Origin: Elioraea tepidiphila DSM 17972 | GTDB taxonomy: Bacteria > Pseudomonadota > Alphaproteobacteria > Acetobacterales > Acetobacteraceae | Assembly (NCBI RefSeq): GCF_000378465.1 | Contig: NZ_KB899932.1 | Location: forward strand, 1-64,000 | DNA length: 64,000 nucleotides | Direction: 5' to 3' | In this document: positions 39,896 through 39,924 of the stretch, in pieces | How the letters are laid out: every line of letters begins with the position of its first letter | Numbering within the stretch: position 1 is the first letter of the stretch | Notes under the pieces: generated by a model | The model's database searches: none | What the model was told of the DNA's origin: nothing | What the model saw: the letters and a program-made list of their open reading frames with translations, nothing else | Made by a program: the position numbers and the translations under genes

Positions 39896-39924
39896 ATCCT
39901 GCGAATCGGCGGACTCCGCGTCAA
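39896..39924 (-). promoter_or_regulatory. candidate ccrM promoter with two GANTC sites in its spacer
   Basis: On the reverse strand TTGACG (39924-39919), a 17-base spacer and CAGGAT (39901-39896) form a sigma-70-like promoter with a weak -10. The spacer contains both GANTC sites of the region (39912-39916 and 39903-39907), 5 bases apart edge to edge. The -35 overlaps the rnhB stop codon. A start near 39889 would give a leader of about 32 bases before the ccrM ATG. Confidence 0.55.

Follow-up and report, generated by a model that had tools for sequence, protein, structure and literature searches.

We identified a recurring promoter layout in Alphaproteobacteria in which the core promoter of the methyltransferase gene ccrM contains GANTC, the target of CcrM itself, at set places relative to the -35 and -10 boxes. 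Among 94 families sampled, 57 have at least one such site. We hold it almost certain that the layout is genuine and conserved in many ccrM promoters. That many related bacteria retain it suggests a long-standing feedback control coupled to DNA replication.

The window (the whole stretch of Elioraea DNA analysed, 64 kb) encodes a kin of Caulobacter CcrM with an N6-adenine methyltransferase domain and a C-terminal RAMA domain. The product matches the NCBIfam Caulobacter-type model (E-value 6.8e-185) with 613.9 bits, under the model cut-off of 830. The closest named CcrM record is from an Elioraea MAG (98% identity over residues 1-306). A DUF533 gene and rnhB, which overlap by 4 bases, form a same-strand cluster upstream of ccrM, with a gap of 63 bases between rnhB and ccrM (Table 1). 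A second pair of GANTC sequences (38753-38768, 11 bases apart) lies directly past the ccrM stop codon and is absent as a pair from the four other Elioraea loci examined.

Table 1. Coordinates of ccrM, its upstream neighbour and its promoter elements in the window
Feature	Position	Strand	Basis or remark
ccrM, adenine methyltransferase, N6_N4_Mtase and RAMA domains	38778..39857	-	PF01555, PF18755, NF050803
rnhB, ribonuclease HII	39921..40556	-	stop overlaps -35
-35 box TTGACG	39924-39919	-	sequence; TTGACGC in 7/7 Elioraea genomes examined
GANTC site 1, GAGTC on - strand	39912..39916	.	offset +8 from TTGAC, about -27 to -23
GANTC site 2, CGATTCG on - strand	39903..39907	.	offset +17, about -18 to -14
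-10 box CAGGAT	39901-39896	-	sequence; CAnnnT in family-level profile
Transcription start, predicted	39889	-	placed 7 bases past -10
Shine-Dalgarno-like GAGGG	39862..39866	-	sequence; precedes ATG at 39857

A first-pass annotation had proposed a promoter here with both GANTC sites of the region inside its spacer, and the minus-strand sequence bears this out. The boxes lie at the coordinates first given, and between TTGACG and CAGGAT the 17-base spacer reads CG GAGTC CGCC GATTC G. The nearest other GANTC sequences in a scan of the window start at 39703 and 41807, so both GANTC sites of the ccrM upstream region are in the spacer. The rnhB stop codon (TGA, 39923-39921) overlaps the -35 box, with TTGACG straddling the end of rnhB, as had been noted. 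The -10 box is indeed weak: CAGGAT agrees with TATAAT at three of six bases, and a strict consensus scan called no promoter in the ccrM upstream region. Site 2 (CGATTCG) fits the extended GcrA motif YGAKTCG, and site 1 (GGAGTCC) does not. No TTAA occurs in the 200 bases upstream of the ccrM ATG, and the best match there to a CtrA box (TTAA-N6/7-TTAA) is 4/8.

GANTC is rare in the window, with 73 occurrences observed versus 270 expected (mean of shuffles), a depletion that is consistent with GANTC methylation by CcrM in Elioraea. Neighbouring GANTC pairs with starts within 20 bases occur only four times in the 64 kb. We also counted TTGAC in a 264-kb genome sample composed of the window and ten 20-kb stretches of the Elioraea genome. 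In six of its 138 TTGAC sequences a GANTC starts at +6..+19; the one at ccrM alone has two. The total of spacer GANTC in this sample (7 versus 2.3 expected) is not strong alone; the strong evidence comes instead from the comparison between genomes. A chance meeting of a GANTC pair with TTGACG would agree with the silence of the strict scan and with the fact that the pair is not fixed in Elioraea. Against chance stand the rarity of GANTC in the window, the unique position of ccrM among the 138 TTGAC sequences and the recurrence of the layout across the class, and together they make this explanation hardly credible.

The class-wide draw found a CcrM match at 1e-60 in 134 of 191 alphaproteobacterial genomes. 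Our family sample takes one genome per family and covers 94 families, including the window's; one family (G247), in which the gene is fragmentary, was passed over, and the upstream regions of G045, G058, G035 and G019 (no site) and of G046 and G037 (site present) were left out. Within 300 nt upstream of ccrM, TTGAC is present in 74 of the 94 families and GANTC in 82. The offsets of GANTC starts from TTGAC in these families peak at +8 (18), +9 (13), +10 (8) and +19 (34). A weaker cluster of 16 cases lies at -15 from TTGAC; the site there is frequently GATTC with an A-rich stretch after it.

The first site position (+6..+11) is occupied in 50 of the 94 families, the second (+17..+20) in 40, and both on one TTGAC in 33; 37 families have no site at these offsets. 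In a circular-shift control (2000 shifts of GANTC within each sequence) the corresponding means are 6.7, 4.5 and 1.1 and the maxima 15, 13 and 6. The offset windows were picked after the histogram was seen, and the excess over the shifts is far beyond what such post hoc windows should be expected to give. A second control comprised the 473 TTGAC sequences located elsewhere than in the 300 bases upstream of ccrM in 110 ccrM loci (relatives and named genomes, including two duplicates). Seven of these have a GANTC at the first position, four at the second and none at both.

The sequence of the sites is informative as well. The middle base at the first position is free (G in 17 cases, T in 14, C in 13 and A in 7), which indicates that a CcrM methylation target is kept rather than a fixed string. 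At the second position the middle base is C in 28 cases, A in 8 and T in 4. When 39 promoters are aligned on the -35 box and the second site, A is found at +24 in 38 and T at +28 in 37, two bases that lie outside the alignment selection criteria. The -10 box of the aligned promoters reads CAnnnT, and in the +19 form the box opens with the C that closes the second GANTC. Furthermore, 35 of 75 TTGAC-bearing families (the window's not counted) have an in-frame ATG 35-38 bases from the start of TTGAC. This distance coincides with the expected transcription start, making a leaderless message possible; if these ATGs are the true start codons, the ccrM messages of the 35 families may be leaderless or nearly so.

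Elioraea has its own form of the layout. Its second site is two bases upstream of the commonest class position, and its ccrM ATG is at +67 from TTGAC, so that the Elioraea message would not be leaderless. A strict spacing of the two sites fails in Acetobacteraceae: site starts are 9 bases apart in Elioraea and 9-11 in the common class forms, and the second site is further on in the Roseomonas type. Roseomonas-group loci such as L012, L039, L045 and L048 have a first GANTC at +10 and a second at +36 to +38, which adjoins the predicted transcription start instead of the -10 box. A DnaA-box-like TTATNCACA or TTGTCCACA replaces the first GANTC in L148 (G127), L212 (G261) and L213 (G228). DnaA boxes as a recurrent spacer element (+3..+16) were set aside as too weak a signal (5 of 94 families versus 1.4 expected, 1% of shifts).

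We found ccrM in all seven Elioraea genomes examined. Both spacer sites are present in two (L002, which is the window's own, and L003), a single site in two (L004 and L007) and no site in three (L005, L006 and L112). L007, with 98% CcrM identity, is one base off from the second site. The middle base of the first site, at +8, varies among close relatives (GAGTC in L002, GACTC in L003 and L007), and CAGGATGCG is found at the -10 position in four of six Elioraea promoters aligned. This uneven retention indicates weak or changing constraint in the genus, and the instability of the pair counts against a vital role for it in Elioraea itself. Judged from these alignments, Elioraea is a drifting local case of the class-wide layout. 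The first-pass annotation had staked its proposal on the presence of the pair in relatives; within the genus that expectation fails in part, and at class level the pair, or an arrangement close to it, is found repeatedly.

We placed the layout on a CcrM tree of 108 loci, built by a quick method after dropping the duplicates L032 and L042 and without counting L112. Both sites are present in 22 loci, one site in 27 and TTGAC only in 29; 30 were scored as having no TTGAC, including the uninformative L070, whose upstream sequence spans just 53 bases. The spacer layout predominates among loci of the Rhodospirillales and Micavibrio types and also occurs in Reyranella, Dongia, Erythrobacter and one of two loci from the Rhodobacter group; four of six Elioraea rows and 18 of 20 Roseomonas-group rows carry it too. 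Spacer GANTC is absent from all 11 Rhizobium-Phyllobacterium clade loci and from all four Phenylobacterium rows on this tree. In the large Acetobacteraceae clade of Acidisoma, Rhodopila and Acetobacter, two of 32 rows have a site and many rows retain TTGAC. L080, titled Mycobacterium sp. KBS0706, has a ccrM locus of alphaproteobacterial type and falls among alphaproteobacteria on the tree; its organism label therefore looks wrong.

The tree requires a minimum of 14 changes of layout, and the distribution would fit an ancestral layout followed by losses. We tentatively propose a more specific history, which we hold to be possible rather than probable. The ancestral alphaproteobacterial ccrM may have been a self-contained switch, with CcrM sites within a sigma-70 core (the second ending on the first -10 base in the common form). 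The marks would have been sensed by RNA polymerase itself, with neither GcrA nor CtrA involved, and the message would have been leaderless, beginning at the ATG. Caulobacterales and Rhizobiales would later have put the gene under CtrA.

GcrA is a candidate reader of the sites. In Caulobacter it binds methylated GANTC (PMC3667746) and reportedly activates promoters in which YGAKTCG is methylated (PMC7987155, reporting Haakonsen 2015). GcrA bound to sigma-70 might open the weak ccrM promoter only when spacer GANTC is methylated; CcrM would then activate its own gene by positive feedback, and ccrM would belong to the GcrA regulon. Several observations in Elioraea agree with this, the main alternative. 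The genome encodes GcrA (E-value 1.5e-36), which aligns with the Caulobacter GcrA structures 7ye1, 5yix and 5yiu over residues 1-153. GANTC is located in the core promoter, where the -10 box is weak and site 2 fits the motif described in PMC7987155. The spacer position is also shared by Caulobacter cell-cycle promoters that carry GANTC between the -10 and -35 boxes and are active at 40-60 min (PMC4287350). The same study reports that only 31% of GcrA-bound cell-cycle starts have a GANTC no more than 50 bases away.

Across families the sites do not follow GcrA. The GcrA family PF07750 is matched in 122 of the 191 genomes (120 above the cut-off), and a site is kept in 15 of the 20 families without a match versus 42 of the 74 with one (Fisher p 0.20). 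Three of the 20 (G056, G165 and G273) are doubtful, because a match turns up in another genome of the genus, so that draft loss is likely; once they are removed, 14 of 17 GcrA-less families keep a site. G036 has a match under the Pfam cut-off, and moving it to the GcrA-free group gives 16 of 21 versus 41 of 73. By neither count (15/20 or 14/17) does the layout depend on GcrA across relatives.

More sensitive searches led to the same picture. Searched against the 20 GcrA-free families, a GcrA profile built from 14 sequences returned hits in five, all of them weak. Four of these hits were inspected and look like other proteins, namely a sigma factor, a regulator of LuxR type and unrelated frames; the remaining one is in G165 (E-value 0.041). 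G056 had no hit with either of two profiles, A1 or A2, and profile A1 found none in G004, G025, G058 and G045. The GcrA-free G148 is a single contig rated 100% complete and has both sites. A very divergent GcrA may be present in GcrA-free families.

In the named set, 50 of 80 loci were searched for GcrA and 43 of these genomes have a match. Among the seven without one, profiles A1 and A2 gave no hit in five and a hit in G080 that looks spurious. G088, the genome of the Magnetospirillum-labelled locus L073, has a 145-aa ORF (at L250) similar to the sigma-binding end of GcrA alone; the DNA-binding half is missing from it, and no full GcrA was found in the genome. Six of the seven genomes without full GcrA keep a site, L099 being the only locus without.

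The second site is, moreover, followed by A, not G, in 38 of 40 families, so the YGAKTCG match of Elioraea is not the class rule. Since sites are kept in families without detectable GcrA, GcrA is unlikely to be the only reader; as sole reader, it gains no support from the co-occurrence test or the more sensitive profile. We consider GcrA-dependent activation a fair reading for Elioraea itself, as judged from its sequence. It appears to fail as a general account across families, and as an explanation of the layout we regard it as rather unlikely. The earlier suggestion that a further activator may be needed holds in part: the weak -10 box and the presence of GcrA speak for it, and the sites in GcrA-less genomes argue against a universal need.

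We lean towards the reading that the sigma-70 ccrM promoter senses its own methylation: it would be closed when fully methylated and opened again by replication. The level of ccrM transcription would depend on the methylation that replication and CcrM activity leave behind. Both spacer sites would be methylated in Elioraea, and full methylation would weaken polymerase binding or opening, with site 2 touching or nearly touching the -10 box. Passage of the fork would leave hemimethylated sites and allow a burst of CcrM, which would then shut its own gate by full methylation. In GcrA-bearing genomes, including Elioraea, GcrA may add activation via the same marks.

Support for a methylation-sensing promoter comes from the sites themselves, their recurring place, the free middle base and their persistence without detectable GcrA. 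The first-pass annotation had placed the methyl marks where RNA polymerase binds; they would fall there, and the spacer position recurs far beyond Elioraea. Its further claim of methylation feedback on ccrM finds weaker support. For the sign of the effect, closing by full methylation is most likely by analogy: transcription of ccrM in Caulobacter is reportedly confined to hemimethylated DNA (PMC2217572; similarly in the review PMC10073500). An enzyme whose making required its own mark could not recover from loss of that mark.

Other observations count against the closing model. The pair is unstable in Elioraea (2/7), 37 of the 94 families have no site, and sites are mostly lost in the large Acetobacteraceae clade (2/32). 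By analogy, the Caulobacter promoters with spacer GANTC that are active at 40-60 min would fit activation better than repression (PMC4287350). The spacer sites might even carry little weight for ccrM, with GANTC serving other uses or ccrM being co-transcribed mainly from further upstream, together with DUF533 and rnhB. The tight same-strand cluster (4-base overlap, 63-base gap) and the loss of the pair in five of seven Elioraea genomes favour this explanation. Conservation of position relative to -35 and -10 across the class is not expected of sites with other uses, and we judge the explanation improbable.

Methylation feedback on ccrM, and spacer GANTC in cell-cycle and GcrA-linked promoters, are both already known in Caulobacter. 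To our knowledge, the coupling of methylation to replication is poorly understood outside Caulobacter. In the open-licence papers searched we found no description of a ccrM core promoter with its own sites at set places in many families, a -10 box that merges with the second site and, in many cases, a putatively leaderless start, including genomes in which no GcrA was detected. A survey of cell-cycle circuits from 2010 used 500-base windows to count GANTC and stated that methylation control was not derivable from such counts (PMC2877005); aligning on the -35 box makes the GANTC signal clear. The recurring layout offers a direct test of whether methyltransferase timing itself is set by the enzyme's own marks, and, where lineages lack GcrA or do not place ccrM under CtrA, it could explain how CcrM is kept in step.

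The ccrM promoters of Sinorhizobium and Brucella (Rhizobiales) drive the same gene. They differ in that CtrA binds there (PMC4433202 and PMC2877005), whereas the region upstream of Elioraea ccrM is without a CtrA-like box. The Caulobacter ccrM promoter is similar in its gene, in having CcrM targets near the transcription start and in its reported link to methylation (PMC2217572 and PMC10073500). The Elioraea sites, in contrast, lie between -35 and -10. The Caulobacter ccrM promoter is driven by CtrA, and its GANTC sites lie in the leader, as reportedly described by Stephens and colleagues in 1995. Four Phenylobacterium loci, Caulobacter kin, have GANTC 6-26 bases before the extrapolated start codon and no TTGAC spacer site. 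The first-pass view of the Elioraea promoter as a compact version of the Caulobacter switch may thus reverse the history, as the Phenylobacterium sites are near the start codon and the in-spacer layout occurs in many other lineages.

The Caulobacter sigma-70 promoters linked to GcrA and CcrM resemble the layout in having GANTC near or between -35 and -10. GANTC is located at -29 or -28 in ctrA P1 and at -24 in podJ P2 (PMC4287350). In such promoters GcrA reads the methyl mark (PMC3667746). The ccrM layout differs from them in that it persists without detectable GcrA and targets ccrM itself, often through two sites at set places.
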